Source: a virus
Direction: 5' to 3' (one strand)
DNA length: 23,646 nt
Virus record (IMG/VR): IMGVR_UViG_3300010885_072136
Coordinates: 1 to 23,646 of that record
The position numbers were made by a program, and so were the translations under genes. The number at the start of each line of letters is the position of its first letter. Within the stretch, counting starts at the first letter, position 1. This document shows positions 2,032 to 23,646 of the stretch, one piece after another. Under the pieces are notes generated by a model. It was not told the DNA's origin. It worked only from the letters and a program-made list of their open reading frames with translations, and did not search any database.

Positions 2032-3756
2032 ATGAGTTGGAAAAAATACTTCACACCTGTTAATGTTAATAACAACCCGTCTTCGGGTCCGTTGACTAAC
2101 ACTGGCGGCATGGGACCTGCACGTAAAAACTACAGTAGTTTCTTACCAGATGTGTATACAGGAGCTCCTAATAGAGTTGAACGTTATCTGCAATACGATA
2201 CAATGGACATGGACAGCGAAGTTAATGCTGCCTTAGACATTATTGCTGAATTTTGCAGCCAAAAAAACAGAGAAAATCAAACACCGTTTCATTTGTTCTT
2301 TAAAAGCAAAGCAACTAACAGCGAAATTAGCATTTTAAGAGAATACTTACAACAGTGGGCAAAGTTACAAAATTTTGAAACCCGCATATTTAGAATTGTA
2401 CGCAACGTATTCAAGTACGGTGATGCATTTTTTATTCGTGATCCTGAAACTAAGAAATGGTTCTATGTTGATGCCGCCAAGATTGTTAAAATTATAGTTA
2501 ACGAAAGCGAAGGTAAAACTCCCGAGCAATATGTTATCCGTGACTTAAATCCTAACTTTATGGATCTTGTTACTACAACTATTAATCCTAATACTACAAA
2601 TACCAATAACAGAGGCACTGCTTACGTAGCAGGTGGTCAAGCTGCTCGAGGAATGACAGGAGCCTATCCTGCATCAAGTAGCAGTTCTACAAGATTTGAT
2701 ATTCAACAAAATGAATTAGCAATAGATGCTGACCACGTTATTCACCTAAGCCTGTCCGAAGGATTAGACAATAACTTTCCGTTTGGCAACAGCTTGCTGG
2801 AAAGTGTATTCAAAGTATATAAGCAAAAAGAATTATTAGAAGATGCTATTCTAATATATCGCATACAACGTGCTCCGGAAAGACGTATTTTTTACATTGA
2901 CGTTGGAAATATGCCCAGCCACTTAGCCATGGGCTTTGTTGAAAGGGTAAAAAATGAAATACACCAAAGAAGAATACCAAGTGCTACTGGTGGTTCTACT
3001 AATGTTATTGATTCAGCATATAACCCGTTGTCTATTAATGAAGATTACTTCTTCCCAACTACCGCTGAAGGACGAGGAAGTAAAGTTGAAACTCTACCAG
3101 GAGGCACGAATCTTGGCGAGATTGATGACCTAAAATACTTTACTAACAAGTTATTCCGTGGTTTACGTATCCCAAGTAGCTACTTACCAACAGGTGCAGA
3201 TGACGGTGCAGCGCAGTATAATGATGGTCGAGTGGGCACAGCATACATTCAAGAACTGCGTTTTAACAACTACTGTATGCGTCTGCAGAGTCTAATGCAA
3301 GATCAGTTTGATCAAGAATTTAAACTGTATTTGTATGAAAGAGGTATCAACATTGATTCAAGTTTGTTTGAATTAAAGTTTCAGCCTCCACAAAACTTTG
3401 CAACTTATCGTCAAGCAGAACTTGATAACCAACGTATTAACACATACGGTACTATTTCACAACAAACTTATATCTCAAAACGTTTTGCTTTAAAGCGTTA
3501 CTTAGGATTAAGCGAAGAAGAAATTGCAGAAAACGAACGCCTATGGGCAGAAGAAAACGGCAAAGGTGCACCTACAACAACTAATTCCAGTGGCGAATTA
3601 CGTGGCGTTGGAGTAAGCCAAGCTGGGATAGAATCTGATACTACTGCATTAGGTGACGCAGTGCCACCACCAGGAATGCCAGATGCTACAGGCGCACCGG
3701 CTCCGGGAGCACCAGCACCAGCACCAGCTGCTCCGGCAACTCCGCCCGCAGCATAA
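2032..3756 (+). CDS. 20: Portal vertex protein (T4 gp20 family)
   Basis: This 574-residue protein is the dodecameric portal at the unique head vertex: it starts prohead assembly, is the channel for DNA packaging and later joins the neck. T4-family signatures include RIQRAPERRIFYIDVGNMP (from residue about 277), LPGGTNLGEIDDLKYF (from about 355) and the following FRGLRIPSSYLP. Upstream, MDMDSEVNAALDIIAEFC (about 60-80) matches the conserved N-terminal wing region. It is slightly longer than T4 gp20 (524), mostly through a Ser/Thr/Asn-rich insert near residues 185-225 and a low-complexity Pro/Ala/Gly tail over the last 35 residues. ATG 2032 follows the upstream stop by 5 bases with no clear Shine-Dalgarno, which suggests translational coupling. 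The stop TAA at 3754-3756 lies 8 bases before the next ATG. Confidence 0.96.
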   Translation: MSWKKYFTPVNVNNNPSSGPLTNTGGMGPARKNYSSFLPDVYTGAPNRVERYLQYDTMDMDSEVNAALDIIAEFCSQKNRENQTPFHLFFKSKATNSEISILREYLQQWAKLQNFETRIFRIVRNVFKYGDAFFIRDPETKKWFYVDAAKIVKIIVNESEGKTPEQYVIRDLNPNFMDLVTTTINPNTTNTNNRGTAYVAGGQAARGMTGAYPASSSSSTRFDIQQNELAIDADHVIHLSLSEGLDNNFPFGNSLLESVFKVYKQKELLEDAILIYRIQRAPERRIFYIDVGNMPSHLAMGFVERVKNEIHQRRIPSATGGSTNVIDSAYNPLSINEDYFFPTTAEGRGSKVETLPGGTNLGEIDDLKYFTNKLFRGLRIPSSYLPTGADDGAAQYNDGRVGTAYIQELRFNNYCMRLQSLMQDQFDQEFKLYLYERGINIDSSLFELKFQPPQNFATYRQAELDNQRINTYGTISQQTYISKRFALKRYLGLSEEEIAENERLWAEENGKGAPTTTNSSGELRGVGVSQAGIESDTTALGDAVPPPGMPDATGAPAPGAPAPAPAAPATPPAA

Positions 3757-6745: not shown

Positions 6746-7912
6746 ATGTCAGAACTACTAACAAGCCGTTGGAACGAGACCAAGGAAGCCCTATTAGAAG
6801 GCCTACAAGGCAATCGTAAATCCGCAATGGCTGTAACATTAGAAAACACACGCAAGTATCTTGCAGAATCAGCAACAGCTGGTGCTACATCTGCAGGTAA
6901 CGTTGCAACACTTAACCGCGTAATTTTACCGGTTATTCGTCGCGTCATGCCAACCGTTATTGCTAACGAATTGGTTGGTGTACAGCCAATGACCGGCCCA
7001 GTTGGACAAATCCACACCCTACGTGTTCGCTATAGCGATACATCAGGACCTGCGGGCGTAACAGCTGGTGAAGAGGCATTTAGCCCATTCAAGATTGCAG
7101 AAGCTTATTCTGGCAACACTACAACTGGTAAAGCTGCAACAACAGCTAACCTCGAAGGTGCTGCTGGTAACAAGATGAGCATCCAGATCTTGAAACAAAC
7201 CGTCGAAGCTAAGACACGTAAATTGTCTGCTCGTTGGACATTCGAAGCTGCTCAAGATGCACAAGCCCAACAAGGCATTGACATCGAAGCAGAAATCATG
7301 GCTGCTCTTGCACAAGAGATCACAGCTGAGATTGACCAGGAAGTTCTTGCTTCGTTAAGCACACTTGCTGGCTCTGCATCTGAGACATACAACCAAGCTT
7401 CTGTATCTGGTACAGCTACATTCGTTGGTGACGAGCATGCCGCATTGGCAGTTCAGATCAACCGTGTTGCTAACTTGATCGCTCAGCGTACACGTCGTGG
7501 CGCTGGCAACTGGGCAGTTGTTTCACCAACAGCATTGACAATTCTTCAAAGTGCTACAACTTCTGCGTTTGCAAGAACAACAGAAGGCACATTCGAAGCA
7601 CCTACAAACACTAAGTTTGTTGGTACATTGAACAACGCAATGAAGATTTATGTTAATACATATGCAACAAACGATGATGTTCTTATCGGTTACAAAGGTT
7701 CAAGCGAGTCAGACGCAGCGGCATTCTATTGCCCTTACGTTCCTCTAATGAGCAGTGGTGTTGTACTTGACCCATCAACATTCGAACCAGTCGTATCATT
7801 CATGACACGTTATGGTTATGTTGAACTAAGCAACACAGCGTCATCTTTAGGTAACGCTGCTGACTACTTAGGTAAGGTTGGTATCACAACAGCTAACGTT
7901 AAGTTTAGCTAA
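6746..7912 (+). CDS. 23: Major capsid protein (T4 gp23 family)
   Basis: A 388-residue HK97-fold shell protein. Family sequence includes ILPVIRRVMPTVIANELVGV and GVQPMTGPVGQI (about 60-90), TVEAKTRKLSARWTFEAAQD (about 150-170), then IEAEIMAALAQEI, and near the end VLIGYKG, AAFYCPYVPL and FMTRYGYVELS. The N-terminal 41 residues are a likely delta domain: L39-A40-E41|S42 fits the gp21 cleavage consensus, and L16-L17-E18|G19 is a second fit. T4 gp23 is similarly trimmed after residue 65. The protein is much shorter than T4 gp23 (521), with a short N-terminal propeptide and little room for the T4 insertion domain. A strong ribosome site precedes it and a strong terminator follows. No gp24-type vertex gene follows in this window. 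Confidence 0.97.
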   Translation: MSELLTSRWNETKEALLEGLQGNRKSAMAVTLENTRKYLAESATAGATSAGNVATLNRVILPVIRRVMPTVIANELVGVQPMTGPVGQIHTLRVRYSDTSGPAGVTAGEEAFSPFKIAEAYSGNTTTGKAATTANLEGAAGNKMSIQILKQTVEAKTRKLSARWTFEAAQDAQAQQGIDIEAEIMAALAQEITAEIDQEVLASLSTLAGSASETYNQASVSGTATFVGDEHAALAVQINRVANLIAQRTRRGAGNWAVVSPTALTILQSATTSAFARTTEGTFEAPTNTKFVGTLNNAMKIYVNTYATNDDVLIGYKGSSESDAAAFYCPYVPLMSSGVVLDPSTFEPVVSFMTRYGYVELSNTASSLGNAADYLGKVGITTANVKFS

Positions 7913-7980: not shown

Positions 7981-8008
7981 CATAGTACGACTTACACACG
8001 GTAAGTTT

Positions 8009-8029
8009 TATGCGGTAACCCACCGCGTA
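8009..8029 (+). other. Leader hairpin before the 234-residue protein gene
   Basis: TATGCGGT and ACCGCGTA pair over 8 positions (one G-U) around the loop AACCC. The hairpin ends 21 bases before the AAGGAG site at 8051-8056. It could stabilise the 5' end of the transcript or affect translation. No riboswitch family is recognised. Confidence 0.45.
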
Positions 8030-8064
8030 TGGTCTAAAACGCCACTTTTCAAGGAGAAAATAAA

Positions 8065-8769
8065 ATGGGACGTCCTTTAAACAAAAAATATTTTGGTAAC
8101 CGTAACATCGGTACCGCAGTTACTACCGATGACAGCATTGGCGGTAAAGGAATAGCCAGCGTAACTATTGCTGGTGTCTGGAGTGGATTCACTCAAGCAA
8201 CATCAACTGTTACATTTACTGCTCCACAATTGCCAGGCGGTGTAACAGCTACTGGTACTGTGACAATCACAGCAGGAGCTCCAACATTAGTCACAATGAC
8301 TAACAAGGGTTCTGGATATACAGCATTGCCAACAGTTACTATCGCTGACAGCGATGTTGGCGCAGAAACAAGTGGTACAGCAACAGCAGTATTTGAAGTT
8401 GATACTGGCGCAGTTGGATCCTCAACAAATAACGAAAATGCTATTTCAATGACGGCATTTCTGCCAGGTGGTTCAGCTGGTCCAGTTGACATTATTCGTC
8501 AAGTTTCTACACGTCGTTACAAAGTAACAGACGGAACACGTACCGGTATTGTAACGTTGAAAGCATCAGTTGCCACAGCAGCCGGTGAAGGCAGTATTCG
8601 GTTAGTTGATACAACAGGAACTGGTACATACTTTGCTACTAAGTTAACAGCTCACAAAGCTACAATTACTCGTGGCACAGGTACACAGGCAGCTTTTGCA
8701 ACCAATGATGCAGTAGAATGGAATATGACAGCAGCAACAGCAACATCGTTATTAATTGATAACGCTTAA
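8065..8769 (+). CDS. Beta-rich virion structural protein, function unknown
   Basis: A 234-residue protein starting MGRPLNKKYFGN, an N-terminus I associate with small structural proteins of marine T4-type phages. Residues about 30-115 are Thr/Val/Gly-rich beta sequence containing GSGYTALPTVTIAD, the same 'GxGY...P.V.I' beta motif seen in the first giant fibre gene (near 11600-11800). The middle has IIRQVSTRRYKV followed by a short beta domain, and the C-terminus contains ITRGTGTQAAFATNDAVEW. There is no signal peptide or membrane segment. It has a strong AAGGAG site and is the first gene after the terminator. A head-decoration or tail/fibre component are both possible; sequence does not decide between them. 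Confidence 0.75.
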   Translation: MGRPLNKKYFGNRNIGTAVTTDDSIGGKGIASVTIAGVWSGFTQATSTVTFTAPQLPGGVTATGTVTITAGAPTLVTMTNKGSGYTALPTVTIADSDVGAETSGTATAVFEVDTGAVGSSTNNENAISMTAFLPGGSAGPVDIIRQVSTRRYKVTDGTRTGIVTLKASVATAAGEGSIRLVDTTGTGTYFATKLTAHKATITRGTGTQAAFATNDAVEWNMTAATATSLLIDNA

Positions 8770-10359: not shown

Positions 10360-13300
10360 ATGAAATACTTTCGCAGTCAAAATTTAAACCCGGGTAACAT
10401 ATTAGACAACACGGTTAGTGTATTGTCTAATGGTGATGTAGAAATAAATCCAACTAATAAAGTTACCATCAATGGCGATCTACTGGTTGTTAACGGAAAC
10501 GTTCCTGGTCCAGAAGTTACTAATGTAATATATGTTACATTAGATGGCAATGACGACAATACTGGCCTTGGCGAAGGTCCTGATCAAGCCAAGCGAACAT
10601 TAAAAGCAGCCTGTGCTATGGCTCAAGAAGGCACTACTATCTTTATGCGTAGTGGTGAATTTTATGAAGATAATCCTGTTAGAGTTCCGCCAAAAGTAAG
10701 TATTATTGGTGACAACTTACGTAGAGTTATTATACGTCCATTAAACGGACCACTCTCATTTAATATTTCTAATATTGTAAGAACCAACGGTTATGTCACT
10801 ATCACTACTACAGCGGCCCACGGATTGAATGCACGAGATAGAGTGAGAGTTCGATGCAGTAACAATAGTATTGATCAAGTAGATGTTAATTTAACTGCTG
10901 TTACTTCTAACACAATGACCTATAGACAACCCGGTGCTAATATTATTCCTTCTGCGGCATCAGGTAAAGTATTACACGGTAGAGATATGATGTATGTTAA
11001 TAGTCAATCATATATTGCCGGAGTAGTATTCAAAGGGCTTCAGGCTCCTGCGTATTGTATTAACATCGACAGTGATGCCATTGTTGATACATCACCATAT
11101 GTTCAAAATTGTTCAAACATTAACGGACCATGGATGAGAAATGGAACTGAATGGAGACCGTTTATTACAGAACAGCCCGATTTAAACGGCACCATGGTCA
11201 CAGGTCCTCGACCGTTGTTAGACAACGAAATAGCAGTAGGACAAGATACAATTTATGGCATTGACCTGGAAGGCGCAGGCGGCGGCATGTTAATTGATGG
11301 CGATCGTTACAGCAGTGAAACTCCTATTAAGTCTATGGTTGCTGATGCTTTCACACAGGTTTCGCAAGGTGGCATTGGTTTCCATATTACTAACTTTGGT
11401 TACATGCAACTGGTTTCTTGCTTTGCAGTATTCTGTTCAAAAGCATTTTATGCAACACGTGGTGGCTACCTATCTATCTCCAACTCGGTTATTGACTTTG
11501 GTACAGAAGGATTTGTAGCTGATGGATACTATCTTGATCCGTATGCCGAAGGTCGAGTTATTAACAGTTATTACTCATCTGTGGGATCAATTTCTGTTGT
11601 AACAGAAGGCGCTGGATATAATGGAACAAGTCCTATTGTAGTAACTATCGATCCGCCAGCAGCACCGGGTGGTGTACAAGCAACTGCAAGTGCAAACTAT
11701 GATCCTATAACTGGTAAAGTTAATGCGGTTAGCATCGACGAACCAGGAACTGGTTATGCTGAAGAACCAACTATTATAATCAGCGGCGGCGGCGCAACAA
11801 TTGACGCAACTGTGATTGCTAATCTAAATAGAAATAGCACAATATCTGTTAGTTACTTGCCAAGCAAACCGCAAGTAGGTAGTATTATGTTTGTTGGTAC
11901 TAATCCGGTAGCACACTACATATCAAATACAGTGGGCAGTATTGCACCATTTACCTATAACGAAACTAAGTGTCGCAGAGATACTGGATACATTATTGAC
12001 GGTGTGTATTATGATGCAGCTTTAGGCACAAATTATAACGCAGTTATCAACGGTAGATCATATAGACGAGCAACAGCTTCTGAAGTTATTGACAGTCAAT
12101 TAACACAGACTGTGGGTGCTATTAATTATTTAAAAACATTATTAGCTGCTGAACTGTCTACTAATGCCACTGCTATTTCAAGAAGCAACAGTGCTATTAC
12201 TGAGATAGTTGATATTATAGAAAACGGTATTCCTGCTGTTAACGCATTAACATTTCCAGACCCAACCGGTGCAAATACTAATTTAATCAGTGCCAAAGAA
12301 CAACTCATTGACAACAGAGCGTTTATTATGGCAGAAATTACTGCCTGGATTGCAGATCAAGTTGCCGGTCCTATTGCACCATTTACTGGCGCATTTACCT
12401 ACGATGCAGTAACATGTGCTCGCGATGTAGGTTATATTGTTGATGCATTATGCTATGATATAATTTACGGTGGTAACAGTGCAACAAAAATTGCAGCTCA
12501 GGCATACTTTGAAAATTCAGTATCTGTGCTACCAGCTGGCCAAATATTGCCAACAGCCGCAGCATTTGCAAGATTACAATCAATTGCACAAGACATCGTA
12601 CAAGAAATTGCAGTAACAACATCTTCAACAAATATTGAAATTCAAGATGTCAGCGGCACACCTGCAACTGCAACAGAAGGTACTGAAGTTTTTGATTTAG
12701 TACAAATTATCATTGACGTGATAGTTGCAGGCAACACCAGTGGTATGCCATCAACATCAAATCCTTCAATTAGTTGGGCAGACGCAGGAATTCAAACCGC
12801 AGTAACTAATCTTGCAGCAAATAAATCAGCTGTGATTGATGATACAATTTTTTATATTGATCAAGAGTATGCCAGCTTATTCACATACGACCAACAAAAA
12901 TGTAAGAGAGACGTTGGCATTATTTTAAATGCTGTGCTTGCAGATATGACTTTTGCATCTAATTACCAAAGTACTGCTGCCGGTGTAGCATACCTTCGTT
13001 CATACTCAAGCAAAGTTACCAGCTTACAAAAGAGTCAGACTATAGCTGGACTTGAAGAAGCAAGAGATCAGACATTAGCATTAACAGTTAACCCAACTGC
13101 AATTACTGATATTACTACAAATTTTAATATTGTAATTGATATTATTAACAATGGTTTAGCAAGTATTCCTACATTGGCATTGCCAGCACCAACATTAGTT
13201 AGAGGCGGCTTTGCTGAAGCGTCAGCAATACTTGATGCAAATAGAACATTTATTCAAGATGAAATTACAGCTTGGATTGCAGTAAATTATCCAGTACTTG

Positions 13301-16176
13301 CGGCAACTTACAATAGTGCCAAGTGTCGTAGAGACATCAGCTACATCATCGACGCAATGCGTTATGATATGACCTACGAAGGTAATACGCAAACAACCAA
13401 TGCTGCATTGGCCTATGTTGAAGGCAGTGTTATATTTGGCCAAGTAGAAGAAACTCAAGACGCTTACGAATATTTAAAAACAATAGTAGGCGCTGTTATT
13501 ACTAATAATACAATTAGTAGAAGTTTAGGTAATACCACTACTCAAAATGTATTATTACCAGTAGGCAGTCCAGCGCCGGCACCAAATAGTCCATCGAACA
13601 TAGCTGAACAATTGTTACAGATTATTATTGACGAGATTGATCACGGTCCTGGATATATTCCAGATCCACTAAGCTATCCAGCATATACCAAAGGTGACAG
13701 TACTTTAAATTCAGTAAGACTTTCCATACTAACATCACTTACAGACATTCAAGATGCTGTAATATCTTTCTTAAATGTTACCTACGGCGGAAGTATAACG
13801 GTATCAGTATTTCCTGCAATTACTACAATTGCAGCTGGCACTGAAGTTAGTTTCCATAATGTATCTACAATTTCAACAGGCGGAACTGCCCTTGAATATG
13901 TTGGTGCCGGTGTTACCTACAACGCATTGCCGTTCTTTGGCGGAGAGCCAATTGCTGCAAAAGAACGAATTGAGATAAACAATGGTAAGTGTTTTACAGT
14001 TACTAACGATCAAGTTGGTAATTATAGAGTTGGAGAATACTTTACAGTTAATGCACTAACAGGTGCAGTAACTATTGATGCAGACAACTTAAATCTAAGC
14101 GGCCTTGCAGCCATTGGTCCATTTAAACGCAATGGTATTCCTGTAGGTATACAGTTACGAGAAGTTAGCGATAACAACAATTTAATTGCCAGCACAGGTA
14201 CACAAGACGGAAACACTACACCAACACAACGTGCAGTGGCTACCTATGTTCAAAATCGATATTTAAATAAAGTACAATTAACGCCACAGACTATTTCCGG
14301 TGATATACAATTTAGCAGTGATGTTAATATAGATCAAGATTTAAATGTTGACGGTGGTGATATTACAACTACATCCGGATCAATTAATTTACTAAACACA
14401 AATGCATCCGTAATTAACTTTGCAGGTGCAGCAACTGATTTACAAATTGGATCAACTACAGGCATAACAACAGTTAATAATAATTTAACAGTTGATGGAA
14501 ATTTAATTTCAGGAAGTGCAACTGCTGTAAACGAAATTAAAGGCCTTACCAGTTTTATTGGAACTGGCGCAGAAGAATTTACTGTAAAAATTAAAGGCAG
14601 CACAACTGGTGCATATTTGGCTGTTGGTACTAAGAGTGATCCTGCTTACGGTATTGTAAACCAAATTTTAAAATATGATGCCAGTGGTTACTTAAAGTAC
14701 TCAGTAACTGCCTCTGAAATTAAATTTAATATTGCAAATGGTTCTGCTGCTGCTGTACAAAATGATGCACTGAAAATAACAGATACTGGATATGTATATG
14801 TAGGTAGCACTATTCCAGCTACTAATTCAACAAGTGGAGCACTACAGGTCGCTGGCGGTGTTGGCATTGCCGGAAACTTATACGTTGGTAGCAATGAAAC
14901 TATAACTGGTGACTTAGAAGTTCGCGGCGGCGATATTACTACTAACGCTGCAACGTTTAATTTATTAAATGCCACTGCTACTACAATCAATGCGTTTGGC
15001 GCAGCTACAACATTAGAATTTGGAGCAGCAACAGGTACAACCAACATCAATAATAATTTAGACGTTGACGGCGATGTTAATATTGATGGCGGTGACCTAA
15101 CTGTAAGCACATCTACATTTAACTTAGCTAACACTACCGCCACAGTTATTAACTTTGCTGGCGCAGCCACTTCAATTAGTATTGGCGCTGCTACAGGTAC
15201 TACAACTATTAATAATGCTAATACCGTAGCGTCAGGTGACCTTGCAGTTAATGGCGGCGATATTACCACAACTGAAACAACATTTAATTTATTAAATGCC
15301 ACTGCGACTACTGTTAATTTTGCAGGTGCTGCAACAGCATTAAATATGGGTGCTACTACCGGCACTACTACCGTTCGAAACAATTTTGAAGTTGATCTAA
15401 ACGCTACTATTAACGGCAATCTTGATGTTGACGGTGATGTCAATATTGACGGCGGTGATTTAACAGCCAGCACAACAACATTTAACTTATTAAACACCAC
15501 AGTAGAAACAGGCAATGTACTTGGCGCAGCCACAACAATTAATGTTGGAACAACTGCTGTAACAGCTGGAACTTTAAAAGTTGGCCCATTAGTAACCGGC
15601 AATACATTAAAATTACAAAGTACAACAATTGGCACTGTTAACTATACAACCGATGTAACATCCGGAACAGTCAATGCTTGGCAAAGCCTAACAGGCACAA
15701 TTAATATTGGGTCAAGCGGCACTGTAAATTTAGGTACAAGTATATCAGCAACTACCACAGCCGTAGTAGGCGGAGCATTAACAGGCAATACATTAAAGAT
15801 TGCCAGCACTGCTGGTGGAACTGCTAATTTATCAAGTGATGTAACAACAGGAATAGTCAATGTCTTTACTGGGGTAACAACTGGCACAGTCAATGTTGCT
15901 ACAGGCGGTACTAATACAATTAATGTGGGCAGTTCCACAAGTACGGTAAATATTGGCAACTTAGTTTTAACAACAGACTTAGCAGTACAATATGGCGGCA
16001 CTGGACGTAGTACATTTACAGCTAATGGAGTTATATATGGTAACACAGCAGATGGATTATTAGTTACAGCGGCAAGTGTTCCTGGCAGTAATGCTACAAC
16101 AAGTTATGGAATTTTAACAACAAACGGAAGTAATGTTCCTGTTTGGACAGACACAATAGACGGTGGAAGTTATTAA
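10360..16176 (+). CDS. Giant modular fibre-like protein 1
   Basis: 1938 residues. Order of parts: a short N-terminal beta segment; a beta-helix, pectate-lyase-like region (about 56-390) opening IYVTLDGNDDNTG and containing FMRSGEFYEDNPVRVPPKVS and IIGDNLRRVIIRPL; within it an 'HGL' module (about 154); two 'GxGY' beta motifs (about 415-500); four alpha-helical 'KCxRD' repeats (about 533-1120); a segment with NYRVGEYFTVNALTG (about 1220); repeated 'GGD...TFNLLN' units (from about 1332) including ALQVAGGVGIAGNLYVG; and a C-terminus with YGGTGRSTFTANGVIYGN and PVWTDTIDGGSY. No Shine-Dalgarno is visible; ATG follows the upstream stop by 2 bases, so coupling is likely. Such modular beta proteins form adsorption fibres or other virion appendages. 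The beta-helix could bind or degrade surface glycans, but I cannot assign catalytic residues. Confidence 0.85.
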   Translation: MKYFRSQNLNPGNILDNTVSVLSNGDVEINPTNKVTINGDLLVVNGNVPGPEVTNVIYVTLDGNDDNTGLGEGPDQAKRTLKAACAMAQEGTTIFMRSGEFYEDNPVRVPPKVSIIGDNLRRVIIRPLNGPLSFNISNIVRTNGYVTITTTAAHGLNARDRVRVRCSNNSIDQVDVNLTAVTSNTMTYRQPGANIIPSAASGKVLHGRDMMYVNSQSYIAGVVFKGLQAPAYCINIDSDAIVDTSPYVQNCSNINGPWMRNGTEWRPFITEQPDLNGTMVTGPRPLLDNEIAVGQDTIYGIDLEGAGGGMLIDGDRYSSETPIKSMVADAFTQVSQGGIGFHITNFGYMQLVSCFAVFCSKAFYATRGGYLSISNSVIDFGTEGFVADGYYLDPYAEGRVINSYYSSVGSISVVTEGAGYNGTSPIVVTIDPPAAPGGVQATASANYDPITGKVNAVSIDEPGTGYAEEPTIIISGGGATIDATVIANLNRNSTISVSYLPSKPQVGSIMFVGTNPVAHYISNTVGSIAPFTYNETKCRRDTGYIIDGVYYDAALGTNYNAVINGRSYRRATASEVIDSQLTQTVGAINYLKTLLAAELSTNATAISRSNSAITEIVDIIENGIPAVNALTFPDPTGANTNLISAKEQLIDNRAFIMAEITAWIADQVAGPIAPFTGAFTYDAVTCARDVGYIVDALCYDIIYGGNSATKIAAQAYFENSVSVLPAGQILPTAAAFARLQSIAQDIVQEIAVTTSSTNIEIQDVSGTPATATEGTEVFDLVQIIIDVIVAGNTSGMPSTSNPSISWADAGIQTAVTNLAANKSAVIDDTIFYIDQEYASLFTYDQQKCKRDVGIILNAVLADMTFASNYQSTAAGVAYLRSYSSKVTSLQKSQTIAGLEEARDQTLALTVNPTAITDITTNFNIVIDIINNGLASIPTLALPAPTLVRGGFAEASAILDANRTFIQDEITAWIAVNYPVLAATYNSAKCRRDISYIIDAMRYDMTYEGNTQTTNAALAYVEGSVIFGQVEETQDAYEYLKTIVGAVITNNTISRSLGNTTTQNVLLPVGSPAPAPNSPSNIAEQLLQIIIDEIDHGPGYIPDPLSYPAYTKGDSTLNSVRLSILTSLTDIQDAVISFLNVTYGGSITVSVFPAITTIAAGTEVSFHNVSTISTGGTALEYVGAGVTYNALPFFGGEPIAAKERIEINNGKCFTVTNDQVGNYRVGEYFTVNALTGAVTIDADNLNLSGLAAIGPFKRNGIPVGIQLREVSDNNNLIASTGTQDGNTTPTQRAVATYVQNRYLNKVQLTPQTISGDIQFSSDVNIDQDLNVDGGDITTTSGSINLLNTNASVINFAGAATDLQIGSTTGITTVNNNLTVDGNLISGSATAVNEIKGLTSFIGTGAEEFTVKIKGSTTGAYLAVGTKSDPAYGIVNQILKYDASGYLKYSVTASEIKFNIANGSAAAVQNDALKITDTGYVYVGSTIPATNSTSGALQVAGGVGIAGNLYVGSNETITGDLEVRGGDITTNAATFNLLNATATTINAFGAATTLEFGAATGTTNINNNLDVDGDVNIDGGDLTVSTSTFNLANTTATVINFAGAATSISIGAATGTTTINNANTVASGDLAVNGGDITTTETTFNLLNATATTVNFAGAATALNMGATTGTTTVRNNFEVDLNATINGNLDVDGDVNIDGGDLTASTTTFNLLNTTVETGNVLGAATTINVGTTAVTAGTLKVGPLVTGNTLKLQSTTIGTVNYTTDVTSGTVNAWQSLTGTINIGSSGTVNLGTSISATTTAVVGGALTGNTLKIASTAGGTANLSSDVTTGIVNVFTGVTTGTVNVATGGTNTINVGSSTSTVNIGNLVLTTDLAVQYGGTGRSTFTANGVIYGNTADGLLVTAASVPGSNATTSYGILTTNGSNVPVWTDTIDGGSY
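11956..13440 (+). repeat. Four diverged helical repeats (KCxRD type) in giant protein 1
   Basis: Copies begin near 11956 (YNETKCRRDTGYIIDG), 12400 (YDAVTCARDVGYIVDA), 12886 (YDQQKCKRDVGIILNA) and 13309 (YNSAKCRRDISYIIDA), 141-162 residues apart. The first three copies end with a helical stretch reading close to 'NR.FI..EI.AWI' or an equivalent. They diverge strongly in DNA, so the duplications are old. Confidence 0.85.
14353..15510 (+). repeat. TFNLLN beta-repeat array of giant protein 1
   Basis: Units with the pattern 'GGD(I/L)T..(A/S)TTFNLLN.TAT..N.AGAAT...(I/F)GA.TGTT.IN' start (at GGD) at 14353, 14926, 15088, 15253 and 15451. The adjacent ones are 162, 165 and 198 bases apart; the gap after the first holds another beta module. 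Regular short strands suggest an elongated, probably trimeric fibre shaft. Confidence 0.85.
15088..15144 (+). repeat. 57-base block identical to 22698-22754
   Basis: This block, within a colinear region that begins at 14908 (matching 22518, offset 7610 throughout), is identical in DNA to 22698-22754 in giant gene 2. Over 14989-15144 and 22599-22754 the two proteins are identical for 52 residues. Confidence 0.9.
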
Positions 16177-16247
16177 GGGCGGTGGGGAAACCCACCCTGA
16201 CCCGCTGGGCGTCGAAAGACCTGACCCGACCTTTTTAGGATGACAAC
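16177..16247 (+). ncRNA. GC-rich structured spacer between the two giant genes
   Basis: This 71-base spacer is far richer in GC than its surroundings. It holds hairpin 1, GGTGGG-GAAA-CCCACC (16181-16196), a GNRA-capped 6-bp perfect stem, and a weaker hairpin 2 near 16208-16227, with GTC-GAAA-GAC inside an outer GGG/CCC pairing. CCTGACCCG occurs twice (16196-16204 and 16220-16228). A T-run (16232-16236) and a TAGGA ribosome site (16236-16240) follow. It could act as a partial terminator, an RNA-processing site or a translation control element for the next gene. It matches no RNA family I recognise, and the core of a hammerhead ribozyme is absent. Confidence 0.5.
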
Positions 16248-19200
16248 ATGGCAAGTAGAATTAAACACAAGCGTTCCAGTGTAGCTGGAAGAATCCCACT
16301 CGCAGCTGATTTAGAAGCAGGCGAACTGGCACTTAACACTAATGACGGTAAAGTATATCTAAAAAAAGATGATAATAGTGTCTTAGATATCACATCAACA
16401 ATTTTTAAAAATGATACCAATGTTACTGTAACTGATACAGGCGCAGACGGCACTGTGTCAGTCACCGCTGACAACGTTGAGAAATTAAGAATCAATGCAA
16501 CGCAAGTTCAGTTTAAAGAAACTACAACAATTGAAAATGCCAAAGAACTTCAATTTAAAGAATTAACAGGCAGCGGCAGTAATTATGTAGGCGTTAAAGC
16601 TCCTGATTTACTGACAGCAAATTATACATTAACATTACCATCTGGTGCAGGCGGAGTTGGTCAAACATTATCCAGCGACGGTTTAGGAAACTTAGAATGG
16701 AGTGATCCAGACATCTTCGGCGGAAATAGAATTTATGTTTCTGGTTCTAAAGGTAATGATGCCAATGACGGTATTACTGCTCCGGTACAAACACTTAAAA
16801 GAGCTCTACAAATATCATCCGGGTATGTTTATTCATCTCTTGGTGCAGTTAATAATCAAAAGGTTGTGGTAGTAGTATCAACAGGCGACTATACAGAAGA
16901 TAATCCGTTGATCGTACCTGATAATGTAACTGTTCTTGGTGACAGCCTACGTTCGTGCGTCATCAGACCAGCTAACGCTAACCAAGATATGTTGCGTGTT
17001 CGAAATGGTTGCTACTTCGGTGAATTCACATTCCGCGATGGATTGAGTTCAGGTAGTCCTGCGTACACTTTCAACTACGCAGTGGCATTTGACGACCCGC
17101 TTGACACTTCGGTGAGTCGTGTAGGCTACACATATTTGCCAAGCACTAAGCCACGTATCAATCAATCACCGTATGTTCAGAATTGCTCTATTATATCATT
17201 CCTTGGAGGCAACGGTGTGCTTGTTGACGGTAGTAAAGTTACTACCCCTAATACCCCAGCTGACCCATTAGAAGTAGAAAGACCAGTTTCAAGTCCTTAC
17301 CCTGAACAAGGTAAGTCTATGGTTGCTAATGCGTTTACCATGCTGTCATTTGGCGGCACAGGCTGGCGAATTATCAACGATGCATACGCACAGATTGTTT
17401 CTTGCTTCCAAATTTTCATGTTGAACGGTGTATACACACAGAGTGGCGGCTACTGTTCTATTACTAACTCTGCTACTAACTTTGGTTTGTATGCTCTACG
17501 TGCTTCGGGGTATAGTCCGTTATCGTTTGCATTTGATAGAGGTTATATTGGAACAACAGGTGCGTTCGGCAGCGTTCAAACAATTACTGCATTTGGATGG
17601 AATAGACCAGAAGGTCCTGTTGAAGAATTTGTTATTAGAGTATATGATCCAACAACAGAAGCTGATATCACAGATAGTTTTAAAAGTACATTACCTGGTT
17701 TTCTTGAAGTATCATTCAACGCAGCCACTGCCGTTAGTGCAGCAACAAATATTTTTACCATCACTACTCATGGTTTCAACAACGGCGATGCTGTAATTTA
17801 TAACAGTAATGGCGGCACAGATATCAATGGTATGTTTAATGGCGATACTTATTTTGTCAAATACATTAATGCAAATCAATTCACACTAACCTTTGATAAC
17901 AGTTTATCAAAAGATGTTGATATTTTTGTAGTTGGTACAGGTACTCAAAAGTTTAAAAAACAAGACTATGAAATGTATGTTAATGATATTGCCGAATACC
18001 ATAATACTTTTCAAGAATTAATAATTTCAGGTGGACCGTTTGTAAGTTTTGCACCAGGAGACGTAATTGAAGGTCAATCAGGCGGATTACCTAACAATGC
18101 TTATGTCTACAATTGGAATAGTGGTACAAGTACGCTAACAGTTTCTGTTAATAAGGTTACCATCGGCGTAGCATCAGTTAGAAATGTATTCTTAACTGCT
18201 GGCGAAATTACAAAAGTAGGCAGTACAGTTGTTAGCTATACTATAACAGGAACGTCTGCGTTATCTAATTTATATGCCGCAACGTTTGAAGTATTGCCTA
18301 CAATTGTTGGCGGTCAATTAATTGACACTGCTAACTTAGCAGGCAAGAAAATTTATTTCCATAGACCAAGCGTTACTAATAGCTCAGGACATACTTGGGA
18401 ATATGCTGGATCCGGCACAGACTACAACGCACTACCTCAGAACGGTGGACAGACTGTAAGCAGATACGAACAGTATGCAGAAAATGCAGGCCGTGTTTAC
18501 TCTTCAGGCACTAACGAACTTGGAGACTTTAAAGTTGGCGACTTTATTACTGCCTACAACAGAACAGGTAACATTACATTTAGAAATAAAGTTACTGTTG
18601 ACACACTCGACGTACTACGTCTTGCATTAAGTGATATTGAAATTACCGGTATTAGTACGGACGTTGACCTTGGCGAAAACGAAGTTGGTGGTCCAAGCAA
18701 CGCTCGATTAAGTACCCAATTAGCAACATGGGCCTATGCAAATAACAGACTTGGCTCGTTCATTGATAAATCAGTTACCACATCAGCTATTCCGGGATCT
18801 ATTGTTCAATTGAACAGTAATGGCCAAATTAATTCTGACTTAATTCCTACTCAAAGAAACTTTACCAGCTTTATAAGCCAAGGATATCGTTCTCGTTTAG
18901 CACAAGTTGATAATATTCCTGCAGGCGATATGCAATCGGGAGATATTGCCACTGAGAATTTTGAACAAATTGAAATTACGCTTAACAGTGGGTTAGCAAC
19001 AAGTTTTATTGATGGTGCAACTGTAACACAGGCTGTTACCGGAGCAACCGGCCTATTAAAAGGTGACTATGCCGCAGGTACAACAGTTATACGAGTAGCC
19101 AGCGTGTACGGAACATTTGCTGTAAGTTTTGCCACTGGCGCCGCAAATACATTAACTATTGCAGGAACAGCAACAGCAAAGTATCCTACATTATTAGGCA

Positions 19201-22200
19201 CTGCTGAAGCTACCAGTGCTAACTATTTTTTACGTGGAGCCACTTCTGGACAATACTTAATATTACCAAATAGTGGATCTTATACATTTACCAATGCAAC
19301 AATCAGTACTGCATTTAGATACAACAACATTGCATATCTTAAAACCAGTGCAGCACATAATTTAGTAACAGGCAATCAAGTAAACATTGATGCTGGAACT
19401 GCAACTTACGATGCTATACCGTTTGTAACAGTTTTAGATTCAGACGAATTTTATTATTCTAACACCGCAGCTGATAGTGCAACGTCAGCAAGTACTACTG
19501 CTACAGCAACACTGGCTGGCGCAACATCGGCATTGACAATGACTGGAAGTGTAACATCTGGAGCACTAACGGGAACCATTGTTGTAGGTAATTTTGTATT
19601 TGACGTAGCTGGTACTATTCCTGTTGGTTCAAAGATTACCACTGTTAATATGGCAGCAAGTCCGCGAACATTTACAATTACATTTCCGGCTTCATCAACC
19701 GTTGCAAGTACTGCAACTGCACAATTAAAATTCTTTACTCCAACAGCGGAAACTGGAACTGTTCGATCAGTGATCACTGCCGCTGACTCATTAAGCCAAG
19801 GTACATTTAGTGAATTAAGAAGCGGAGTGCTGACTAATGTAAACAATCTTGGATTAACAGGCGGCACTGCATATGTTCCTGGAATTTATTTAAGAGTTCC
19901 ATTAACTAATGTAAGCGGCAGCGGTACCGGAGCTCTTGCAGATATCACAGTTAACTCAACTGGCGCAGTAACCGACGTTGATTTAATATTTGGCGGCACA
20001 GGATATGCCAGCGGCAATGTACTCAGCGCAAGTAACACTAATCTTGGCGGCATTGGTACTGGATTTCAAATTACTGCAACTGCGGCAGAACGTCGAGTAT
20101 ATATTACAATCTCAGGTGGTCAATTATTTGTTGCTACACCTACAGCACCTGACTTTGCTGAAGATAACAATACTTCAAGATTTAGTATAACCTCAACTAA
20201 TAGTATTACTAAAACATTTAATGCAGCACCAACGGGTACAGGCGGCAACGTAGATTACGCAACAAATTATATTACTATAGCAACGCACGGTTTAACCAAC
20301 GGTGATCCAGTAATTTATGATCCAGGTGTTAATTCTACAATGGGCGGCTTAATAACATTAAACTGTTATTATGTTAAAGTAGTAGATGCTAACACTATTC
20401 AATTGTGTGCAACTTATAATGTTGCATCGGTTGCAGCATTGGCATTAGGTCCAAGCTCAACAGGAACGCATTCGTTATTCCGATACTCAGTTAACTTGAC
20501 AGACAACAGTGTGTTGGCCCTGGCTCATGGATTAGTTACAGGCGATGCTGTAAGAATTACAGGCTCAAATTTATTTGAAATTGACTCTGTTGCTATATCA
20601 GATAACGATAGATTCTTTGTAGGATCGATTACTACCAACAGCTTTACATTACATACATTACGAGCTGATGCAATATTAAGTATTGCAGGCAATGTGACTA
20701 ACGGTTCTGATATCACAGCCAAAGGCACAGGCACTATTACCTTTGTTGCTAACAATGTACGAATTAACGGAACTGTAAACACAAGTAGTAATAATGTATT
20801 AAATTGGAACTCGTTAGTTTCAACAAATATTGATGCAACTAATATTATTTCTGGCATCATTGCCACAACAAGATTAGCCAGCGGATCGGCAAGCAGTGAT
20901 ACTTTCTTAAGAGGTGACTCTGTATGGAGCACGGCTGTTAAGAGTGTTGCTGTGGCAGCGGGCTCACCAATAACAGCATTAGGCAGTGGCTCAGGACCGT
21001 ATTACGGAAATGTTACTCTTGACGTAATTAAAGTTGATTCAGCAACTGGCTCGGGTGGATACTCCTCAACCGGAGCTGCCAGTTTTAATGTTTCTCAGTT
21101 TGCAGTTGGCCTTGGGGACAGTGTTTCTGCAGGACAAGTTTATATTAAAAATGGTGTTGTTGATGCAGGTACGTTAGACACCTATGACAGTTCGTATTTC
21201 TTAAATCCAAATAACTTAACAAGTGTTGTTCCGCCTAACAAAGGCGGTACAGGTTTGTTTAATTACTCAGCTGGTGACACAATATACGCAACTGGTCCTA
21301 CAACAATTAACTTATTAAATATTGGCCCGGCTGATACAGTTTATACCAGCACAGGATCTATACCACAATGGAGTCCCGGACTAACACTGGGTAAATCAAT
21401 TAGTGTTACTGGTGCAGAAGTTACGACTAACAGCGTCAGTGCAAGTTCGTTATTTAATACTACTACCAAAGCTCTTAATATTGGAGGCGCTGCATCCAGT
21501 GTTGTAATCGGCACAAGTTCTGCAAGTGAATCGTTAACTTCTAATGTAAAAGTTTATACTACCAGCGGAACTCCAACAACAACCGTCACAGTTGCTATGG
21601 GGCCAACAATGGCTATTTCTACAGTGGCTCGAAGTGCAGGTACTGCCACTATCACTACTACTTTAAATCATGGTTTAACAAGTGGCAATACTATTACGAT
21701 TGTTGCAACGGCACCAGATGCTACATTTAATACAATAAATGCATCAGTGACTGTAACAAGTCTTACAACATTCACCTATACAAACGCTGGAACTAATCTT
21801 ACAACTACTGCAGGAACTGGTAGTGTATTTGTTGGAAGCTGGGGCGTGGCATTAGCGGCTACTGTTATTGCAAGTGGAACATCTTTAACATTTGCCAGCG
21901 TAACTAATATTCAAACTGGTCAAGCTGTTAGCGGCAGTGCAAGTATTCCTACAGGAACGACTGTGATTGGTATTAGTGGTACTACTGTATACCTAAGCGA
22001 TTCTCTTACTAACAGTATTACCGCAGGAACTGCCATAATCTTTACAGAAACTGTAAAGAGTCTTGGATTAAAAACTGGCGATCAAATTACCATTGCAAGT
22101 TCTGGTGTTACTAACCTTGACGGTACATGGTCAATTACAGGCGCAACAATTAATTCATCATCTTTTAGTATCACAACTGACGCCAATGTTACTGCAACTA

Positions 22201-23646
22201 ATGTTGCAAGAGCAGGTACAATTGTAAAAGTTAATACTATACTGTTGCGCAATAGAACAGTGACCTTAGGCAGCAGTGAAGCCAGCGGCACACCTATAGC
22301 AGCTATACTAAAAGGTGAGAATGCTGTTGGCACAAACATCAGCGCAAGTAACTTTACAATTACACCGGGCCTTGCTACCGGAACCGGAACAAGTGGTAGC
22401 TTTATTGTTGCTACTGGCACAACTGGTTCCTCAGGTGCTGCTAAACAATCTGCAACATCACGATTAACAATCGCAGCCAACGGTCAAGCAACATTTGCAA
22501 ATGATGTAGTTATTACCGGCGACCTTGCAGTTAACGGTGGAGATATTACTACAAGTGCAACTACATTTAATTTACTAAATGCCACAGCAGCCACAGTTAA
22601 TGCGTTTGGCGCAGCCACAACATTAGAATTTGGAGCAGCAACCGGAACAACTAATATCAACAACAATTTAGATGTTGATGGTGATGTTAATATTGACGGC
22701 GGTGACCTAACTGTAAGCACATCTACATTTAACTTAGCTAACACTACCGCCACAACTATAAACTTTGGTGGTGCAGGTACTGCAATTGCCGTTGGCGCAG
22801 GCACTGGTACAACTACTATTAATCACAATGCTGCAATAACACTTGACTTAGCAGTCAATGGTGGTGATATTACCACAACTGCAACTACGTTTAATTTAAT
22901 AAATGCCACAGCAACCACAGTTAATTTTGCACAAGCAGGTACTGCTATCAGTATTGGTGCTGCCACAGGTACTACTACTATACGGAATGATCTTGCAGTC
23001 AACGGTAATACAACTCTTGGAGATGCAAGTGGTGACACAGTAACAATCAATGCAGGAACACTAACAGCACCAAACACAATTACGTTTGCTGTTGATGATG
23101 CTACTACAGCTGGAATTAGTTATCCTGTTAAAATTCAGCACACTACATCTGGTACGCCAGCTGTTGGTATCGGCGCAGGCTTGCAATTTATTACAGAAAC
23201 CAGTGCAAGTACTAACAAGACAGGAATGCAAATTGAAGCAGTAACTACTGATGTAACGGTTGCCTCAGAAGATTTTGACTTTGTATTAAAATTAATGCAA
23301 AATGGTTCCGCTGCCGCAGAACGTTTTAGAGTCAACAGTGCTGGCGATGGAACCTTAGTCGGCGACTTAGCCGTCAATGGTGGAGACGTTACTACAACTG
23401 CAACAACATTTAACTTATTAAACACAACTGTTACAACTGGTAACTTGTTTGGAGCAGGTACTGCAATCAGTATTGGTGCAGGCACAGGTACAACTACAAT
23501 CAATAATGCTAACACAGCAGTCACGGGTGACCTTGCAGTCAATGGTGGAGACGTTACTACAACTGCAACAACATTTAACTTATTAAACACAACTGTTACA
23601 ACTGGTAACTTGTTTGGAGCAGGTACTGCAATCAGTATTGGTGCAG
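16248..23646 (+). CDS. Giant modular fibre-like protein 2 (3' partial)
   Basis: I read this frame codon by codon from ATG 16248 to the window edge and found no stop: at least 2466 codons. TAGGA lies 7 bases before the ATG. Parts in order: an N-terminal fibre-adaptor-like motif (GRIPLAADLEAGELALNTND, residues 14-33); a beta-helix region (about 162-425: IYVSGSKGNDANDG, STGDYTEDNPLIVPDNV, GGYCSITNSA) paralogous to that of giant 1; several 'HGL' modules (about 506, 1037, 1346, 1426, 1806); a segment with LGDFKVGDFITAYNRTGN (about 757); NKGGTGLFNYSAGDTIY (about 1664); and from about 2097 an array of 'TFNLLN' units that is still running at the edge. No transmembrane segment or protease motif was noticed. 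It is inferred to be a virion fibre or appendage protein, perhaps the largest of the phage. Confidence 0.85.
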   Translation, partial: MASRIKHKRSSVAGRIPLAADLEAGELALNTNDGKVYLKKDDNSVLDITSTIFKNDTNVTVTDTGADGTVSVTADNVEKLRINATQVQFKETTTIENAKELQFKELTGSGSNYVGVKAPDLLTANYTLTLPSGAGGVGQTLSSDGLGNLEWSDPDIFGGNRIYVSGSKGNDANDGITAPVQTLKRALQISSGYVYSSLGAVNNQKVVVVVSTGDYTEDNPLIVPDNVTVLGDSLRSCVIRPANANQDMLRVRNGCYFGEFTFRDGLSSGSPAYTFNYAVAFDDPLDTSVSRVGYTYLPSTKPRINQSPYVQNCSIISFLGGNGVLVDGSKVTTPNTPADPLEVERPVSSPYPEQGKSMVANAFTMLSFGGTGWRIINDAYAQIVSCFQIFMLNGVYTQSGGYCSITNSATNFGLYALRASGYSPLSFAFDRGYIGTTGAFGSVQTITAFGWNRPEGPVEEFVIRVYDPTTEADITDSFKSTLPGFLEVSFNAATAVSAATNIFTITTHGFNNGDAVIYNSNGGTDINGMFNGDTYFVKYINANQFTLTFDNSLSKDVDIFVVGTGTQKFKKQDYEMYVNDIAEYHNTFQELIISGGPFVSFAPGDVIEGQSGGLPNNAYVYNWNSGTSTLTVSVNKVTIGVASVRNVFLTAGEITKVGSTVVSYTITGTSALSNLYAATFEVLPTIVGGQLIDTANLAGKKIYFHRPSVTNSSGHTWEYAGSGTDYNALPQNGGQTVSRYEQYAENAGRVYSSGTNELGDFKVGDFITAYNRTGNITFRNKVTVDTLDVLRLALSDIEITGISTDVDLGENEVGGPSNARLSTQLATWAYANNRLGSFIDKSVTTSAIPGSIVQLNSNGQINSDLIPTQRNFTSFISQGYRSRLAQVDNIPAGDMQSGDIATENFEQIEITLNSGLATSFIDGATVTQAVTGATGLLKGDYAAGTTVIRVASVYGTFAVSFATGAANTLTIAGTATAKYPTLLGTAEATSANYFLRGATSGQYLILPNSGSYTFTNATISTAFRYNNIAYLKTSAAHNLVTGNQVNIDAGTATYDAIPFVTVLDSDEFYYSNTAADSATSASTTATATLAGATSALTMTGSVTSGALTGTIVVGNFVFDVAGTIPVGSKITTVNMAASPRTFTITFPASSTVASTATAQLKFFTPTAETGTVRSVITAADSLSQGTFSELRSGVLTNVNNLGLTGGTAYVPGIYLRVPLTNVSGSGTGALADITVNSTGAVTDVDLIFGGTGYASGNVLSASNTNLGGIGTGFQITATAAERRVYITISGGQLFVATPTAPDFAEDNNTSRFSITSTNSITKTFNAAPTGTGGNVDYATNYITIATHGLTNGDPVIYDPGVNSTMGGLITLNCYYVKVVDANTIQLCATYNVASVAALALGPSSTGTHSLFRYSVNLTDNSVLALAHGLVTGDAVRITGSNLFEIDSVAISDNDRFFVGSITTNSFTLHTLRADAILSIAGNVTNGSDITAKGTGTITFVANNVRINGTVNTSSNNVLNWNSLVSTNIDATNIISGIIATTRLASGSASSDTFLRGDSVWSTAVKSVAVAAGSPITALGSGSGPYYGNVTLDVIKVDSATGSGGYSSTGAASFNVSQFAVGLGDSVSAGQVYIKNGVVDAGTLDTYDSSYFLNPNNLTSVVPPNKGGTGLFNYSAGDTIYATGPTTINLLNIGPADTVYTSTGSIPQWSPGLTLGKSISVTGAEVTTNSVSASSLFNTTTKALNIGGAASSVVIGTSSASESLTSNVKVYTTSGTPTTTVTVAMGPTMAISTVARSAGTATITTTLNHGLTSGNTITIVATAPDATFNTINASVTVTSLTTFTYTNAGTNLTTTAGTGSVFVGSWGVALAATVIASGTSLTFASVTNIQTGQAVSGSASIPTGTTVIGISGTTVYLSDSLTNSITAGTAIIFTETVKSLGLKTGDQITIASSGVTNLDGTWSITGATINSSSFSITTDANVTATNVARAGTIVKVNTILLRNRTVTLGSSEASGTPIAAILKGENAVGTNISASNFTITPGLATGTGTSGSFIVATGTTGSSGAAKQSATSRLTIAANGQATFANDVVITGDLAVNGGDITTSATTFNLLNATAATVNAFGAATTLEFGAATGTTNINNNLDVDGDVNIDGGDLTVSTSTFNLANTTATTINFGGAGTAIAVGAGTGTTTINHNAAITLDLAVNGGDITTTATTFNLINATATTVNFAQAGTAISIGAATGTTTIRNDLAVNGNTTLGDASGDTVTINAGTLTAPNTITFAVDDATTAGISYPVKIQHTTSGTPAVGIGAGLQFITETSASTNKTGMQIEAVTTDVTVASEDFDFVLKLMQNGSAAAERFRVNSAGDGTLVGDLAVNGGDVTTTATTFNLLNTTVTTGNLFGAGTAISIGAGTGTTTINNANTAVTGDLAVNGGDVTTTATTFNLLNTTVTTGNLFGAGTAISIGA
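22536..23646 (+). repeat. TFNLLN beta-repeat array of giant protein 2, reaching the window edge
   Basis: Units start (at GGD) at 22536, 22698, 22860, 23379 and 23544. The gap of 519 bases between the third and fourth holds a different beta module. The last two are a perfect tandem copy in DNA: 23373-23481 equals 23538-23646 base for base (109 bases, period 165, 55 residues), and the match is cut off by the window edge. Confidence 0.9.

Follow-up and report, generated by a model that had tools for sequence, protein, structure and literature searches.

The window, as the whole analysed stretch of DNA is called here, corresponds to an entire IMG/VR record, a linear fragment of 23,646 bases. Its features are collected in Table 1. 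Two neighbouring tail-fibre genes are found downstream of the portal and major capsid genes: the first is complete, and the second starts with an ATG and stays open, free of stops, for the 2466 codons from 16248 to 23645. They are separated by 71 bases (hereafter, the leader), in which a pair of similarly built hairpins is followed by a smaller one that includes the Shine-Dalgarno sequence.

Table 1. Features of the window, with coordinates, strand and the evidence on which each is based.
Feature	Coordinates	Strand	Basis
Portal protein gp20	2032..3756	+	Pfam Portal_T4, E 6e-112
Major capsid protein gp23	6746..7912	+	Pfam Gp23, E 2e-101
freshwater-2 RNA (RF02980)	7990-8067	+	Rfam, 66.4 bits, above the gathering cut-off of 49.9
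Complete upstream tail-fibre gene, 1938 aa (partner gene)	10360..16176	+	PHROG 5342, 4527, 9851
Leader hairpin, copy 1: GGGC-GGTGGG-GAAA-CCCACC-CTGACCC	16177..16203	+	Fold, comparison
Leader hairpin, copy 2: GGGC-GTC-GAAA-GAC-CTGACCC	16207..16227	+	Covariance model, pair counts, stem test
Small hairpin CCU-UUUU-AGGA, holding Shine-Dalgarno AGGA	16230..16240	+	Fold
Giant tail-fibre gene lacking its 3' end, 2466 codons or more	16248..23646	+	Open frame, PHROG 5342, orthologue alignment
Adaptor-type domain at the N-terminus (residues 1 to about 50), MASRIKHKRSSVAG...	16248..16397	+	Related N-termini, alignment conservation
Region of highest conservation (residues 155-450, approximately), probably a right-handed beta-helix	16710..17597	+	PHROG 529, AlphaFold, Foldseek
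Shaft built of 54-55-codon (162-165 nt) repeats, with one interruption	22518..23646	+	Last two copies 97% identical

From the base composition, the chance of an open run of 2466 codons is about 10^-70. Homology backs the frame along its whole length: two relatives, indicated here by locus numbers, align in frame at 54% identity each, L039 over residues 1-2464 and L007 over residues 1-2395. Since these alignments cover nearly the whole length in the same frame, a frameshift concealed within the body of the gene can be discounted. The original prediction of an open frame of at least 2466 codons, with a good ribosome site (AGGA, 7 nt ahead of the ATG) and a fibre-type N-terminus, is therefore borne out, the last point by the PHROG 5342 match and by a relative whose N-terminus matches annotated tail-fibre proteins. 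Neither the exact repeat at the contig end nor the structured leader that includes the ribosome site featured in that prediction. It had also been proposed that such a frame is easily missed; gene callers with default settings normally include incomplete genes at the ends of contigs, which counts against this. The short opposite-strand frames, described as shadows of the repeats, are such from 22484 on, where the repeats lie, and not at 19454-19867, 20525-20932 and 22082-22480; none of the six opposite-strand frames tested across the giant frame matches a PHROG.

Three PHROG families are hit by the encoded protein: 5342 (tail fiber, E 4e-156), 529 (E 8e-17, residues 367-430) and 4527. A Pfam search of it returned no match. 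Relatives are encoded at 80 IMG/VR loci, found by protein homology. The adaptor-type N-terminus is conserved across an alignment of 22 sequences, and that of one relative resembles L-shaped and other tail-fibre proteins of Klebsiella and cyanobacterial phages. The AlphaFold model of the N-terminal part is weak (pLDDT 61) and confident mainly at residues 180-330; its Foldseek matches, beta-helical tailspikes and pectin or alginate enzymes, have low TM scores and are only indicative. A right-handed beta-helix is thus a probable, model-based assignment for residues 155-450 or so; a PDB profile search with the N-terminal alignment returned nothing useful. In the proposed architecture the N-terminal adaptor would join the fibre to the tail, the beta-helix and then the long repeat shaft would extend it, and a distal module, absent from the contig, would terminate it. 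Altogether, the region from 16248 to the window edge is very probably the beginning of a giant tail-fibre gene of modular build, with an RNA leader in front; the source would be a T4-like phage of aquatic habitats, uncultured and probably jumbo.

Complete IMG/VR orthologues starting at the same residue are 2114 to 3646 aa long. As complete relatives of 2.1 to 3.6 thousand residues are common, the emphasis originally laid on an unusual size does not hold, and, judged from sequence comparison, the gene is ordinary in kind rather than exceptional. Its final size had been called unknown; the end does lie outside the window, but the orthologues nearest by N-terminus measure 2390 to 2852 aa when complete and one, L039, is still open at 2997 aa, so that the size is not wholly unknown. 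Since the shaft in the window runs past the point where L001, L007 and L008 near their ends, a full length of about 2500-3100 aa is estimated.

No stop codon is reached because the contig breaks off precisely where an exact repeat within the shaft repeats ends: the last 109 bases (23538-23646) are a copy of 23373-23481, ending on the final base of the contig, and form the longest exact repeat within the window. The assembler presumably halted there, and the last 37 codons or so, i.e. the last copy, are insecure, as is the number of repeats. None of the contig ends of 15 other truncated relatives falls on a repeat, so that a break of this kind is specific to the contig of the window. The repeat at the end, together with shaft repeats common to the upstream fibre gene, might indicate that the giant frame is itself a product of assembly, with collapsed or looped repeats, the real gene being shorter or having a different end. 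This is very improbable, as independent contigs hold full-length orthologues of similar or greater length, which align over the body, and only the last 37 or so codons depend on the repeat. As regards the shared repeats, 492 bp of shaft-repeat DNA are 79% identical between the two fibre genes (14901-15392 and 22511-22999), including an exact match of 57 nt (at 15088 and 22698), which suggests an exchange of repeats between the neighbouring genes.

Orthologue alignment distinguishes three distal ends among the relatives. L001-type fibres end in a 125-residue tip, modelled (pLDDT 85) as a small beta-sandwich with similarity to T4 gp9 and to the C-terminal domains of tailspikes from Acinetobacter phages; an S74 intramolecular chaperone ends L019 and L028 (Pfam, E 2e-16 and 5e-13); and L004-type relatives carry a third ending, GFVNASDV...FG. 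As three different ends occur on related bodies, the fibre body is a common stalk with exchangeable ends.

Both the gp20 portal and the gp23 capsid protein, which identify a T4-like phage, were matched in Pfam, and a head protease gene was also recognized in the window (PHROG/Pfam). The closest capsids from isolates are those of Phosso (73.5% identity, genome of 469 kb), Vibrio 2.275.O (70%, 349 kb) and PA5oct (69%, 287 kb), and the portal-protease-scaffold-capsid gene order matches that of jumbo isolates. On the basis of gp23 similarity and of this order, the source is probably a T4-like phage of the jumbo kind; a fragment of 23.6 kb cannot prove the genome size, and close relatives are found on contigs of up to 383 kb.

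The leader follows the design GGGC-stem-loop-stem-YUGACCC, in one or two copies. Copy 2 of the window scores 53.7 bits (E 4e-14) with the covariance model R1, the window sequence being among the 18 model sequences. The pattern was found in 31 of the 80 loci fetched by protein homology, every match being directly before the fibre start. When unique upstream regions are considered, 67 of 80 carry the leader, i.e. 67 of about 73 unique fibre starts. Among the 13 regions without it, about seven are no fibre starts by translation, and the others are either variants (L013, L215) or real absences (L015, L018, L078); the relatives L015-L018 have the fibre and lack the leader. Across 12 entire records, 48-383 kb in size, copies that are self-complementary, either single or in a tandem pair, occur solely before the fibre start, in agreement with the covariance model. 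Rfam 15 reported no family at 16177-16247, even at E up to 1, and none on the leaders of five relatives' loci. The leader is accordingly regarded as a conserved folded RNA, apparently undescribed and located almost only before this fibre gene. Leaders were also seen ahead of other proteins, at L194 (14028-14089) and L178 (742-776), which by eye share the adaptor-type N-terminus; the leader may travel with the corresponding N-terminal domain.

Taken alone, the window leader folds no better than its shuffles (z -0.7), and the case for an RNA rests on comparison. Thirty-eight distinct hairpins were collected, with stems GUC:GAC, GAC:GUC, AUC:GAU, ACC:GGU and GCC:GGC, plus longer ones. In an alignment of 56 distinct rows, fitted to the covariance model, 99.8% of the cells are paired, and two-sided changes are seen at three pairs, in 18 cells. 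None of 500 shuffles reached the covariation score, where rows include related sequences and neither shuffles nor E-values are corrected for descent; an earlier, unfitted alignment of 18 rows had given the same verdict. In the small Shine-Dalgarno hairpin, 47 distinct rows have U:A as the third pair, and 2 have A:U instead (CCA:UGG). GNRA or UNCG tetraloops account for 15 of the 27 distinct four-base loops, against 4.7% expected (binomial P 1e-13).

The association between stem and gene was evaluated in IMG/VR. GUC:GAC stems stand ahead of fibre genes in 90 of the 120 matches listed and compensated GAC:GUC stems in 18 of 37, against 0 of 24 for the broken GUC:GUC stem (Fisher P 2e-5 for compensated versus broken, and 1e-12). 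When only the 3' half was searched, leaving the stem unconstrained, a pairing GGGC stem was present at 78 and a fibre ORF at 77 of the 80 places listed; two of the exceptions have neither, and one is cut by the locus end. The same 3' half is absent from a collection of bacterial and archaeal genomes, and hence gives no clue to the host. A base-paired RNA tied to the fibre gene is well supported by these comparisons. Symmetric changes would also fit a dyad in DNA, either a binding site or a recombination site for swaps of fibre modules. Fibre genes do exchange modules, and the leader persists even when the parts that follow it are different. We consider such a DNA element improbable, in view of the strong GNRA/UNCG excess, the variable stem length, the fixed orientation, the asymmetry of the conserved loop and the occurrence of G-U pairs.

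A late-promoter-like sequence, [AGT]ATAAATA, lies directly upstream of 47 of the 67 leaders, against a background of 0.5%. All 47 have a single hairpin; of the remaining 20 leaders, 11 have two, the one in the window included; no T4-type late promoter was found on the + strand of the window. Given the late-promoter-like sequence, the leader should be transcribed, and would lie either towards the 5' end of a late mRNA or in between two fibre cistrons. Many relatives (L019, L027, L032, L208 and similar) have one more inverted repeat, e.g. ACAGTGATTGCTATCACTGT, some 50-60 nt ahead of the fibre start, where it is flanked by the late-promoter-like sequence on one side and the leader on the other; it seems to vary in a paired fashion.

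The most likely role of the RNA is control of the fibre mRNA, by tuning either its translation start or its stability. That stability or processing is the chief function, with hairpins at the 5' end of a long late transcript blocking or directing RNase and the Shine-Dalgarno hairpin being incidental, is a rather unlikely reading: the hairpin does follow the late-promoter-like sequence in most relatives, near the expected mRNA 5' end, and the leader type of the window is doubled and placed between two fibre genes, but the conserved GGGC and YUGACCC, the near-fixed distance to the start codon and the compensatory change in the Shine-Dalgarno hairpin all point to the ribosome site. Within the preferred reading, control of translation start or stability, a protein would perhaps bind the invariant GGGC/YUGACCC loop. 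We tentatively propose, as a possibility falling somewhat short of an even chance, a new class of phage cis-regulatory RNA for the receptor-binding fibre: the GGGC/YUGACCC hairpin would be bound by a protein of the phage or of its host, possibly the adaptor of the fibre itself, and the amount of fibre set in this way. If this is true, binding at a hairpin would set the output of a very costly protein. In aquatic phages, giant fibres are believed to determine which hosts are infected. The leader represents a compact RNA element marking fibre genes across many uncultured phages, suggests post-transcriptional control of the production of the receptor-binding fibre, and may be used as a tag for fibre gene starts in metagenomes.

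Several known systems can be compared. The giant fibres of T4-like cyanophages (PHROG 5342; S-PM2 'T4-like GC 830', S-SCSM2R and DSL-LC03; 3161, 3403 and 3338 aa from annotated coordinates) have the beta-helix and shaft in common with the window fibre, at 42-46% identity over parts; the N-terminus is different in DSL-LC03 and S-PM2, all three phages are without the hairpin leader, and the capsid of the window is nearer to jumbo phages of heterotrophs. The jumbo phages PA5oct, Vibrio 2.275.O, Phosso and Eneladusvirus share with the window a 67-74% identical capsid and the order portal, protease, scaffold-like, capsid, but none has the leader, nor freshwater-2 above the cut-off. Searched with the leader covariance model, eight isolates, cyanophage and jumbo, gave no match. 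A giant long tail fibre encoded by a single gene is known from another T4-like phage, S-CREM2, where 286 unique peptides of ORF85 (42559-57474, 4971 aa) were detected in virions (PMC10665884); S-CREM2 belongs to another phage group and infects Synechococcus. Structured cis-regulatory RNAs of the Rfam families wcaG, manA, glnA and PhotoRC have been reported in T4-like phage genomes (PMC9964418, PMC10665884); the leader differs from them in having no Rfam match and in its location before a fibre gene.

A second structured RNA in the window, freshwater-2, is the leader of the gene that follows gp23 (8065-8769), whose 234-aa product has no PHROG or Pfam match and is 35-55% identical in relatives. 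Twelve related phage records each have a single copy, as a rule a short distance behind gp23, and 14 control genomes have none at E 0.001; for this reason the Rfam family looks like a phage element. Preceding the portal gene, a 674-aa protein without PHROG or Pfam match is encoded by a gene that contains a 64-nt exact direct repeat, at 1135 and 1285.
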